From Phycisphaerae bacterium (GTDB lineage: Bacteria; Planctomycetota; Phycisphaerae; UBA1845; Fen-1342): a DNA stretch of 64,000 bases. The notes under the pieces were generated by a model that saw only the letters and a list, made by a program, of their open reading frames with translations, was not told where the DNA came from and did not search any database. The first letter of the stretch is position 1. Each line of letters begins with the position of its first letter. The stretch lies in NCBI GenBank assembly GCA_022072445.1, contig JAJVHV010000014.1, forward strand, positions 62,001 to 126,000, written 5' to 3'. The position numbers were made by a program, and so were the translations under genes. Of the stretch, positions 18,153 to 22,736 are shown piece after piece.

Positions 18153-18504
18153 CACGCCGTCGTCGATCACGCGCGTCACGCTGGTGCGGCTCGGATGGTC
18201 CACGCACAGCTTCGACATGAACACGCGCTTCCTGGAGTTGCGCATGAACACGCGCTTCCTGGAGTTGCGCATGAACACGCGCTTCCTGGAGTTGCGCATG
18301 AACACGCGCTTCCTGGAGCTGGGCTTCACGTACCAGACCGCCCAGGACCGGCTCAAGGTCACCGCGCCCGCCCACGGCTTCATGGCCCCGCCGGGATACT
18401 ATATGCTCTTCATCCTGAAACCTACGCCCGCACAGGACAGTCGCCCGAACGTCTGGTACCCCTCGCGCGGGCACATCGTCAGGGTCGAGATGCAGCTTTC
18501 TTAG
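18150..18504 (+). pseudogene. Galactose-oxidase-like C-terminal domain remnant
   Basis: The frame reads TPSSITRVTLVRLGWSTHSF, then MNTRFLEL four times, then GFTYQTAQDRLKVTAPAH and APPGYYMLFILKP, and ends at 18504. This matches the C-terminal immunoglobulin-like domain of galactose/glyoxal oxidases (DUF1929 type), which carries a THSF histidine and an APPGYYMLF motif. The kelch-propeller catalytic part is missing. The frame opens at 18004 only through unrelated DNA and a dispersed repeat. It is therefore a truncated gene end. The fourfold 27-bp repeat would place 27 extra residues in a core strand and probably disrupts the fold. Confidence 0.7.
18217..18324 (+). repeat. Four tandem 27-bp units
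   Basis: Units start at 18217, 18244, 18271 and 18298. The first three are identical (ATGAACACGCGCTTCCTG plus GAGTTGCGC). The last ends GAGCTGGGC, which is the original continuation of the domain. Each unit encodes MNTRFLELR in frame. This looks like very recent replication slippage in a gene remnant. No spacer sequences are present, so this is not a CRISPR array. Confidence 0.95.
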
Positions 18505-18892: not shown

Positions 18893-18909
18893 CCTTCACA
18901 TGGTGAAGG
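18885..18909 (+). promoter_or_regulatory. thrS ribosome site with start codon in a hairpin loop
   Basis: GAGGGCGG (18885-18892) is the likely ribosome site. CCTTCAC (18893-18899) pairs perfectly with GTGAAGG (18903-18909), leaving the ATG start codon of thrS as the 3-nt loop. A 7-bp stem around the start could tune initiation. In E. coli, ThrRS represses its own translation through hairpins in its leader; whether this hairpin does the same is conjecture. Confidence 0.4.
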
Positions 18910-21029
18910 TGCGTCTGCCCGACGGCAAGGTGCGCGAGCACCCCGACGGCGTGACGGCGGCCGAGGCTGTCCGCGCCATCGGTCCCGGTCTGGCGCGCGA
19001 CGCGCTCGCCGCCCAGGTCGACGGCCGCACGGTCGACCTGGCCGCGCGGCTGCCGTCCGGCGAGGTCGAGTTTCGCGTCCTGACGCCCAAGGCCGACGAC
19101 CCCGCCGCCCTCGAGGTGATGCGGCACAGCGCCGCGCACGTCATGGCCGAGGCGATCTGCTCGCTCTGGCCGGAAACCAAGCTGGTCTACGGGCCACCGG
19201 TCGAGAACGGCTTCTACTACGACATCGATCTCAAACACGCGATCTCGCCGGAGGAATTCGAGCGGATCGAGTCGCGCATGGCCGAGATCGTGAAAGAGGA
19301 TCGGCCGTTCACGCGCTACGAGCTGCCGCGCGGCGAGGCGATGACGAAGTTGGAGCGCGAGGGAAACCCATACAAGCTCGACAACGCCGAGCGGGCCGAA
19401 GGCGACGCGCTGAGCTTTTACGTGACCGGCACGCGCGACAGCGGCTGCTGGGAAGACCTCTGCCGCGGCCCGCACGTGCCGAGCAGCGGCCGCATCGGCG
19501 CTTACAAGATCATGCAGGTGGCTGGCGCGTATCACCACGGCGACGCCTCCAAAGCGATGTTGCAGCGCGTCTATGGCACGGCGTGGCCGTCGAAAAAGGA
19601 GCTGGACGCCTATCTGAACCAGCTCGAAGAAGCCCGCAAGCGCGATCATCGTCGGCTCGGGCCTGAGCTGGGGCTGTTCGCGCTCGATCCGCTGGTGGGC
19701 TCGGGGCTGGCGCTGTGGAAGCCGAAGGGCGCGATCCTGCGGCACACGCTCGAAGTGTTCATTCGCGAAGAGCTGCTGCGCCGCGGCTACCAGCCGGTCT
19801 ACACGCCGCACATCGGCAAGCTCGATCTCTACCGGACGAGCGGGCATTTTCCGTATTACAAGGACAGCCAGTTTCCGCCGCTGTACGAGTCGGAGCGGGC
19901 GCGGCTGCTGAACGCGCTGTGGGAGATCGCGCGGGCCTCGAACAGCGACCGGGCTGGTGCCGAGGAGCTGGCGTTGTTCAGCCGCATCGCCGCCGACCAC
20001 GCCGACCTGCGGCAGGTCGGCTACCCGGCCGATCTGCCGATGGAGGACCGTCTGCGGCGGATTCGTGGTTGGTTGCAGCAGGAGGACGGCTATCTGCTGC
20101 GGCCGATGAACTGCCCTCACCACATCCGGATTTATCAGTCCGACGTGCGGAGCTATCGCGACCTGCCGGTGCGCCTGGCCGAGTTCGGCACGGTCTACCG
20201 CTATGAGCAGTCGGGCGAGATCGGCGGGCTGACGCGCGTCCGCGGCATGACGCAGGACGACGCGCACATTTTCTGCACGCCGGAGCAGTTGCACGACGAG
20301 CTGGCGGGCTGCGTTGACATGGCGCGGCACGCGCTGAACGTGGTGGGTCTGACGGATTACCGGGTGCGGGCCAGCCTGCGCGACGGGGGCGATAAGTACG
20401 TCGGCTCGAAGGAGAACTGGGACCTGGCCGAGGCGGCAATCCTGGACGTCGTGCAGCACTCGGGCATGAACTGGTTCGTCGGGCGCGGCGAGGCGGCGTT
20501 TTACGGGCCGAAGATCGACTTTCTGGTGAAGGACTGCATCGGCCGCGAGTGGCAGCTCGGCACGGTTCAGTGCGACTACAACCTGCCGGAGCGCTTCGAG
20601 CTGAAGTACATCGGGGCTGATAATCACGAGCATCGCCCGGTGATGGTGCATCGCGCCCCGCTCGGTAGCCTGGAGCGCTTCGTCGGGATTCTGATCGAGC
20701 ACTTCGCCGGGGCGTTTCCGCTCTGGCTGGCGCCGGTGCAGGTGCGGGTGATTACGGTCAGCGAGAAATCGCGCGACTACGCCCGCGAAGTGTTGCGGAC
20801 CGTGCAGAAGGGCCTGCGGGCCGAATTCGACGACGGCGACGAGCGGATCGGCAACAAGATCCGCATGGCCGCCCACATGAAGATCCCGTATCTGCTGATC
20901 ATCGGCGAACAGGAAGTCGCCAACCGCACGGTCAGCATCCGCACACGCGACGGCCGGCAGCTCGGAAGCTGCACGGTGGCCGAATTCATGGCGGCCTGCG
21001 CGGACGAAATCGTCAAACGCGGCGTCTAG
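18900..21029 (+). CDS. thrS: Threonyl-tRNA synthetase
   Basis: This 709-residue class II synthetase charges tRNA-Thr. It contains the TGS domain (1-62), the editing domain with H-x3-H in MRHSAAHVMAEA and CRGPHVPSSG, and a catalytic core with zinc ligands in LRPMNCPHH, MTQDDAHIF and MVHRAPLGS. The anticodon-binding domain closes the protein (VRVITVSEKSRDYAREVL, to the end). It is ~65 residues longer than the E. coli enzyme. The extra length is an insertion at about 337-395 (from LLNALWEIARAS to RIRGWLQQ) between the DLYRTSGHFPYYKD and DGYLLRPMNC elements, a feature I associate with planctomycete ThrRS. infC follows 46 bp downstream, the classic thrS-infC order. Confidence 0.95.
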   Translation: MVKVRLPDGKVREHPDGVTAAEAVRAIGPGLARDALAAQVDGRTVDLAARLPSGEVEFRVLTPKADDPAALEVMRHSAAHVMAEAICSLWPETKLVYGPPVENGFYYDIDLKHAISPEEFERIESRMAEIVKEDRPFTRYELPRGEAMTKLEREGNPYKLDNAERAEGDALSFYVTGTRDSGCWEDLCRGPHVPSSGRIGAYKIMQVAGAYHHGDASKAMLQRVYGTAWPSKKELDAYLNQLEEARKRDHRRLGPELGLFALDPLVGSGLALWKPKGAILRHTLEVFIREELLRRGYQPVYTPHIGKLDLYRTSGHFPYYKDSQFPPLYESERARLLNALWEIARASNSDRAGAEELALFSRIAADHADLRQVGYPADLPMEDRLRRIRGWLQQEDGYLLRPMNCPHHIRIYQSDVRSYRDLPVRLAEFGTVYRYEQSGEIGGLTRVRGMTQDDAHIFCTPEQLHDELAGCVDMARHALNVVGLTDYRVRASLRDGGDKYVGSKENWDLAEAAILDVVQHSGMNWFVGRGEAAFYGPKIDFLVKDCIGREWQLGTVQCDYNLPERFELKYIGADNHEHRPVMVHRAPLGSLERFVGILIEHFAGAFPLWLAPVQVRVITVSEKSRDYAREVLRTVQKGLRAEFDDGDERIGNKIRMAAHMKIPYLLIIGEQEVANRTVSIRTRDGRQLGSCTVAEFMAACADEIVKRGV

Positions 21030-21060
21030 CCGCCGGCGCCCGCGGGCGCCGCAACAGTGA

Positions 21061-21078
21061 AAGGTAGGTCGACGCATC
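21061..21078 (+). promoter_or_regulatory. infC ribosome site and AUC start codon
   Basis: AAGGTAGG (21061-21068) lies 7 nt before ATC (21076-21078). No ATG, GTG or TTG exists in frame between the upstream stop (21058-21060) and residue 18 of the conserved IF3 sequence. The ATC reads into SQNLRCNEQIRISPIR, the usual IF3 N-terminus, so ATC is the only sensible start. IF3 rejects non-AUG starts, which is the known basis of autoregulation where infC begins with AUU. Confidence 0.7.
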
Positions 21079-21816
21079 TCACAGAATCTCCGCTGCAACG
21101 AGCAGATTCGCATCTCGCCCATTCGCGTGATCGACGCGCTGAACAACCAGCTCGGAATCATGGCGACCGGCGAGGCCCTGCGCCGGGCGCGCGAAGCGGG
21201 CCTTGACCTGGTGGAAGTAGCGCCGATGGACCGCCCGCCGGTCTGCCGCATCATGGACTACGGCAAGTGGAAGTACCAACTCAAGAAAAAGCAGAAGAAG
21301 CACCACGAGCAGCAACTGAAGGAGATCCGCCTGCGGCCGCGGACCGACGATCACGATCGTGAGATCAAGGTCAAACACGCGCTGGACTTTCTCCGTAAGG
21401 GGGACAAAGTCCAGTTCACGATGGTGTTCCGCGGGCGCGAGCGGTCGCACCGCGAGATCGGGCAGGAGTTCTTCAACGACATCCTGACCGACATCGGTGC
21501 CTACGTGAAAGTCGAGCGCCCGCCGCTGATGGAGGGCCGCAACCTGATCATGATCGTCGCGCCGAACAAGGCCGCGCTCGACAAACTGCCTGCCAGCGCC
21601 GCCGCCGCGCCGCCGGCCACAGGCGCAACGGCTGCGGCGGGAGGCGCGCCGGCCGTGAGGACTGCGGCAGTGTCTGATCCGGCGCCGGGTGCGGCGACGG
21701 CCGCCCCGTCGGCCGGCTCCGCGGCGGTGGCCGCTTCATCCAGTGTTTCGGCGGCGGTGGCCGCCAATCCGAGTACCGGCGGCGCAGCGCCTGGGCCGAC
21801 GGCTCCACAGGCGTAA
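21076..21816 (+). CDS. infC: Translation initiation factor IF-3, AUC start
   Basis: This protein (246 residues counted from the AUC) binds the 30S subunit and proofreads initiation. The N-terminal domain (NLRCNEQIRISPIRVIDALN, then AREAGLDLVEVAP), the lysine-rich linker (KYQLKKKQKKHHEQQ) and the C-terminal domain (IRLRPRTDDHDREIKVKHAL to MEGRNLIMIVAP) are complete by residue ~172. A ~73-residue Ala/Pro/Gly/Ser tail follows that ordinary IF3 lacks. Conservation starts upstream of the first GTG (21127), so translation must begin earlier, at ATC 21076. The usual rpmI-rplT genes do not follow; a dehydrogenase gene starts 12 bp on. Autoregulation through the rare start is likely by analogy with E. 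coli. Confidence 0.9.
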   Translation: MSQNLRCNEQIRISPIRVIDALNNQLGIMATGEALRRAREAGLDLVEVAPMDRPPVCRIMDYGKWKYQLKKKQKKHHEQQLKEIRLRPRTDDHDREIKVKHALDFLRKGDKVQFTMVFRGRERSHREIGQEFFNDILTDIGAYVKVERPPLMEGRNLIMIVAPNKAALDKLPASAAAAPPATGATAAAGGAPAVRTAAVSDPAPGAATAAPSAGSAAVAASSSVSAAVAANPSTGGAAPGPTAPQA

Positions 21817-21827
21817 CGCCGCGGGGG

Positions 21828-22736
21828 ATGGGGATGGTCGACCTGCCCGCGATTGCATTCGTCGGCCTGGGGATCATGGGCCGTCCGATGGCCGGCCACC
21901 TGCTGCACGCGGGCTATCCGCTCCATGTGTTTTCACGGACGCGTTCCAAGGCCGAGACGCTGCTCGCGGCGGGGGCGACGTGGTTTGATTCGCCCGCGGC
22001 CTGCGCCGCGGGTGCCGACGTGCTGATCACCTGCGTCACCGACACCCCGGACGTGCTCGACGTGCTGTTCGGCGTGAACGGCGCCGCCGGTTCGCTGTCG
22101 CGCGGAAGCTGTGTTGTGGACACTTCGACGATCGCTCCGTCCGGGGCGCGGCAATGCACCGAGCGGCTTTCCGCTGCGGGTGTCGATTTTCTGGACGCGC
22201 CGGTCACCGGCGGCGAGATCGGCGCGCAGAACGCGACGTTGACGATCATGGTGGGCGGTCCGGGGGCGGCGTTTGAGCGCGTGCGCCCGATTCTGGCGAC
22301 GCTCGGGAAGACGGTGGTTCACGTCGGTCCGTCGGGCGCCGGGCAGGCGCTGAAAGCCTGCAATCAGATTCTCTGTGCGCTCAACATGATCGGCGTCTGC
22401 GAAGCGCTCATGCTGGCGCGCGAGGCGGGGCTCGACGCGCGGCAGGCGATCGAGACGCTTGCGGGCGGCGCCGGCGGCTCGTGGGCCTGGACGAATCTCG
22501 CAGCGCGCCTCGCCGGCGGCGACCTGAATCCGGCATTCATGATTCGGCTGATGCAAAAGGACCTGCGGATTGTTCAGGAACTGGCGCAGCAGGAGGGAAT
22601 CCCGCTGCCGGGCACGGCGCTGGCGCAGCAGCTTTTCCGCGCGGTCGAGGCGGTTGCGGGCGGCGGCGCGCTGGGCACGCAGGCAATGATTTTGGCGTAT
22701 GAGCGAATGCGGGGCCTGTCGCTCGCCGGGCACTGA
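21828..22736 (+). CDS. NAD(P)-dependent beta-hydroxyacid dehydrogenase
   Basis: This 302-residue protein has the Rossmann motif FVGLGIMGRPMAGHL, the substrate-binding DAPVTGGEIGA and the catalytic lysine in GAGQALKACNQ, and ends with the helical domain typical of 6-phosphogluconate-dehydrogenase-like enzymes. Tartronate semialdehyde reductase and 3-hydroxyisobutyrate dehydrogenase are the closest types by motif; the substrate cannot be chosen from sequence. A start at 21828 or at the ATG at 21834 is possible. It lies 12 bp behind infC and is probably co-transcribed with it, although the two have no obvious functional link. Confidence 0.85.
   Translation: MGMVDLPAIAFVGLGIMGRPMAGHLLHAGYPLHVFSRTRSKAETLLAAGATWFDSPAACAAGADVLITCVTDTPDVLDVLFGVNGAAGSLSRGSCVVDTSTIAPSGARQCTERLSAAGVDFLDAPVTGGEIGAQNATLTIMVGGPGAAFERVRPILATLGKTVVHVGPSGAGQALKACNQILCALNMIGVCEALMLAREAGLDARQAIETLAGGAGGSWAWTNLAARLAGGDLNPAFMIRLMQKDLRIVQELAQQEGIPLPGTALAQQLFRAVEAVAGGGALGTQAMILAYERMRGLSLAGH

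Follow-up and report, generated by a model that had tools for sequence, protein, structure and literature searches.

The infC gene, which encodes IF3, has a rare start codon in several described bacteria. In E. coli and B. subtilis this codon is AUU (PMC1805508), and autocontrol by IF3 at the E. coli AUU was demonstrated by Butler 1986/1987 and Sacerdot 1996, according to the citations given in PMC5472188. Initiation complexes formed on any codon but AUG, GUG, and UUG are selected against by IF3 (PMC4611024); therefore, a poor infC codon would make IF3 limit its own synthesis. The infC start of Streptomyces is stated as AUC (PMC5472188), and that of S. aureus is AUA, as mapped by retapamulin ribosome profiling and read as probable autoregulation (PMC13009471).

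The rare start is already known to cross phyla with different codons, and the window studied here, a stretch of 64,000 nucleotides from a Phycisphaerae bacterium, adds the Planctomycetota. A first-pass annotation of this DNA had rightly named the E. coli AUU, and its suggestion of novelty for a different codon in a further phylum is not supported, since AUC, AUA, and AUU are all on record for the bacteria listed above. AUC starts have reportedly also been described for infC in Deinococcus and for the dsg gene in Myxococcus.

The infC gene of the window resembles that of E. coli in lying behind thrS, in having a start from the codon class disfavoured by IF3, and in having a good Shine-Dalgarno sequence, whereas it differs in using AUC instead of AUU, in having rplT on a separate contig, and in that feedback in its genome is argued by analogy. 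With Streptomyces it shares the gene and the ATC start in another phylum, and the two differ in flanking sequence and organism, in nothing else of substance. Like infC of S. aureus, it combines a non-canonical AUH start with a strong Shine-Dalgarno sequence; unlike there, the codon is AUC rather than AUA, and the start is predicted from the sequence rather than mapped by experiment.

The infC gene and its start site

The features of the locus are as follows.

18900–21029, plus strand: thrS, the upstream neighbour (Pfam tRNA-synt_2b, HGTP_anticodon, tRNA_SAD, and TGS)
21058–21060, plus strand: in-frame TGA that closes the infC frame upstream (sequence)
21061–21068, plus strand: Shine-Dalgarno sequence AAGGTAGG (sequence, duplex energy against the 16S tail, family relatives)
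21076–21078, plus strand: very probable AUC start codon of infC (sole in-frame codon with a ribosome site; ATC in 19/26 family genomes)
21076–21816, plus strand: infC coding sequence, IF3 of 246 codons, C-terminally extended by an Ala/Pro-rich stretch (TIGR00168, Pfam IF3_N and IF3_C, alignment with E. coli IF3 8jsg)
21127–21129, plus strand: GTG, first canonical in-frame start, rejected (inside IF3_N, without a Shine-Dalgarno sequence)

The infC product was identified as IF3 by TIGR00168 (E 3e-55), whose match begins at residue 8 of the translation, and the alignment with E. coli IF3 (8jsg) likewise runs from residue 8. The Pfam IF3_N match starts at protein residue 13, and IF3_C is also present. 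Beyond the Pfam domains, about 80 C-terminal residues (window 21570–21816) form an extension in which Ala, Pro, and Gly are abundant.

The ATC at 21076 is in frame with IF3, and the frame reads ATC TCA CAG AAT CTC CGC TGC AAC GAG CAG ATT CGC and onward to GTG 21127. Between the TGA and the ATC lie the codons AAG GTA GGT CGA CGC, and the frame holds no ATG, GTG, or TTG from that TGA to GTG 21127. Window positions 21061–21078 read AAGGTAGGTCGACGCATC, in which AAGGTAGG is separated from the ATC by a spacer of 7 nt. Its pairing with the 16S 3' tail GATCACCTCCTTT, which was taken from the genome's own 16S gene and is canonical, amounts to about -9.3 to -9.7 kcal/mol. The pattern AAAGGNAGGT-N4-8-ATC, itself derived from the infC site, has a single match in the 5.25-Mb genome, at infC. 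We place the infC start very probably at AUC 21076. Two statements of the first-pass annotation were borne out here, namely that this ATC is the only start with a good ribosome site and that conserved IF3 sequence runs upstream of the first GTG.

The thrS gene ends 46 nt before the infC start, in the classic thrS-infC order, and the gene 3' of infC (window 21817–22736) is 3-hydroxyisobutyrate-dehydrogenase-like. The infC-rpmI-rplT linkage is absent: rpmI and rplT do not directly follow infC as in the operon with L20 control, and the sole rplT of the genome is on another contig (G000 C6:83695–84015). That operon is not needed for start-codon autocontrol. A search of Rfam returned no known RNA leader at infC; a P5 match (E 0.67, far under the gathering score) was set aside as chance. 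Upstream of thrS, positions 18216–18318 hold a perfect 27-nt tandem repeat in 3.8 copies (CATGAACACGCGCTTCCTGGAGTTGCG).

The sequence requirements for IF3 autocontrol are all present. The gene encodes IF3, its AUH start has no alternative and follows a good ribosome site, and the genome carries an initiator-type tRNA (tRNA-Met with anticodon CAU and a GGG/CCC anticodon stem, on G000 C1). We are quite confident that infC is translated from AUC 21076 by the ordinary initiator tRNA, with IF3 feedback as at the E. coli AUU. The good Shine-Dalgarno sequence would position the ribosome at AUC 21076, which the ordinary initiator tRNA would decode as formyl-methionine, and IF3 would destabilise the complexes formed on this codon, as on any other than AUG, GUG, and UUG. 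High IF3 would then lower IF3 synthesis and low IF3 would raise it, which would be the E. coli AUU scheme with AUC as the codon. Judged from other bacteria, the repression at AUC 21076 and the resulting feedback in this organism are probable. The rare start had earlier been presented as a device of IF3 self-repression; the AUC start in that proposal is well supported, and repression, by analogy, appears to be its best explanation.

Conservation of the start column

We compared infC genes from the 30 nearest loci, 80 named genomes, 60 more from the order and class, and 60 across the phylum. The main column counts refer to 91 genomes, which are the genome of the window together with its order and class; start calls for 161 genomes were automated, and a handful of them are wrong or unclear. 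This alignment of infC starts, which the first-pass annotation had proposed as a check, agrees with a start at the ATC. The window's ATC column holds an ATH codon in 59/91 genomes (51 ATC, 6 ATT, and 2 ATA), and 13/91 have it one codon later (11 ATT, nearly all from one sister family). Each of the seven preceding columns has ATH in only 1–4 of the 91 genomes, a contrast that argues against chance.

In-frame stops in the same 91 genomes number 6, 9, 11, 1, 14, 10, and 1 in columns -14 to -8, and zero from column -7, the window's ATC column, onward. Such a step is the pattern that a translation start would be expected to make, and it is free of ribosome-site scoring. Within the window's family, ATC is the start codon in 19/26 genomes, the window and 18 others. 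The typical leader there is GAAAGGNAGGTGANNCCC-ATC-AAY-CAG-AAC, and the relatives carry GAAAGGNAGGTGA or near variants at the Shine-Dalgarno site.

Among 161 infC genes of Planctomycetota, 68 lack any in-frame ATG, GTG, or TTG ahead of the conserved core, counting back to the preceding in-frame stop or over 30 codons; therefore, a canonical start in these genes is impossible or would need to be far upstream. Other lineages have, by their sequences, reverted to AUG, GUG, or UUG. For example, a canonical ATG start is found in five genomes of the window's family (G019, G007, G011, G024, and G017), and a TTG start in three genomes of a sister family (G070, G072, and G040). CTG is the best-placed start in L003 (G008, window's family) and in L122 and L125 (G048 and G063, sister family), and in family f8 the true starts behind two automated CTG calls are probably ATT and ATC. 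In another family the start column holds ATT in one locus and GTT in the other (L233 in G174 versus L228 in G159); a possible GTT start there can be likened to the GTC of Streptomyces sigR, and an upstream ATG makes the case ambiguous. Taken together, the predicted starts suggest that the infC codon of Planctomycetota drifts among AUC, AUU, AUA, and possibly CUG and ACG. What is conserved in these predictions is the codon class that IF3 discriminates against, not one codon.

These patterns also bear on readings other than autocontrol. AUC could be the true start and serve just to keep IF3 low, or be a neutral relic, with no self-regulation by IF3 in this organism; the literature searched holds no test of infC autoregulation in Planctomycetota, and several relatives have gone back to AUG or UUG, therefore the feedback would be dispensable in some lineages. 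However, across most of the sampled phylum the codon changes and its non-canonical class persists, which fits selection for poor initiation, and IF3 itself is well conserved. We regard this reading as unlikely.

A start at GTG 21127, with the upstream similarity as an untranslated relic, has in its favour that this is the first canonical codon in the infC frame. Nevertheless, GTG 21127 encodes V23, ten codons after the conserved IF3 sequence begins, and starting there would delete residues 13–22, the first 10 of the IF3_N match. The residues I-x-Q-N-L-R-C-N-E-Q-I-R, upstream of this GTG, are conserved throughout the window's family, and the absence of in-frame stops from the ATC column onward speaks against it as well. 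The GTG start, very improbable on this evidence, was rejected for its position within the IF3_N domain and its lack of a ribosome site. Even for a draft assembly of 50 contigs, it is hardly credible that an error of assembly or sequencing conceals an ATG or a frameshifted start such as GTG 21057, because this ATC and its ribosome site recur in 18 other family genomes, and GTG 21057 belongs to another frame and lacks conservation. Both the GTG 21127 start and a hidden ATG had been named beforehand as observations that could overturn the AUC start, which we retain.

Candidate ACG starts in two other lineages

In several infC genes of the phylum sample, no ribosome site precedes any NTG, CTG, or ATH codon, and following these up led to two lineages with a candidate ACG start. 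One is a class-level lineage, in which ACG occupies the homologous start position in 12/13 infC genes (genomes G133, G152, G168, G181, G194, G205, G206, G208, G209, G211, G212, and G213; loci L235 and L237–L247, with the infC start at about 1494). The other is a separate order, with ACG in 3/3 (G148, G214, and G215; L248–L250). We consider it likely, from the aligned genes, that infC is translated from ACG in both lineages.

A GGAG or GGAGG lies 6–8 nt upstream of the ACG in 15/15 genes, none of which has a usable NTG or ATH start. In L249, a TGA closes the frame two codons before the ACG, and in L237 and L239 the interval from the stop to the ACG is without NTG, CTG, or ATH codons. The preceding codon varies (GCA, GCC, GTC, ACC, GTT, CGT, CCC, and AAA) and the ACG itself is invariant. 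The residue that follows is small (Ala, Ser, or Thr), a trait shared with many ATC starts; compare ACG GCA CAG with ATC GCA CAG. Automated ACG calls in two further loci were discarded, L182 for an ATT directly before the ACG and L233 as ambiguous.

An ordinary conserved threonine at this column was considered and rejected, as threonine is not conserved there in other IF3s and the internal threonine codons of infC in these lineages are ACG in only 30/83 cases, versus 15/15 genomes (11 genera) at the start column. At that internal frequency, ACG in all 11 genera is unlikely for a mere threonine, the chance being ~0.36 to the 11th power, or 1e-5, if relatedness is ignored. General use of ACG starts was also rejected, since the rplT genes of these operons have an ATG start preceded by a ribosome site. 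The ACG lineages retain the L35/L20 genes after infC, unlike the genome of the window.

Initiation at the ACG would likely proceed by the normal initiator tRNA with a middle-base mismatch, carried by the strong ribosome site. A CAU initiator tRNA was found in 14/15 of the ACG genomes, G148 being without an exact pattern match, and a search of the ACG lineages for an altered initiator tRNA with anticodon CGU found none. ARAGORN does not recognise the lone CTCGTAA match (G194) as a tRNA, and this match, which lies within unremarkable sequence, was discarded. The sensitivity of an ACG start to IF3 would likely equal or exceed that of AUC. The central U of start codons is universal according to one review, and the literature searched, in which coverage is incomplete and an earlier report may exist, gave no example of a natural bacterial ACG start.

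Implications of the codon series

For the organism of the window, these results extend a known device, the rare infC start, to the Planctomycetota and correct an infC start that standard gene finders would set 17 codons too late. The codon drift among AUC, AUU, AUA, and apparently CUG and ACG, mostly inside the set that IF3 discriminates against, offers a natural series that makes the feedback model testable. The AUC case itself is ordinary, and the ACG lineages are the most important part. If true, initiation at ACG would violate the "central U" rule. An essential chromosomal gene would then have a conserved start codon mismatched at its middle base, and ACG would mark the far end of the codon class through which IF3 restrains itself.
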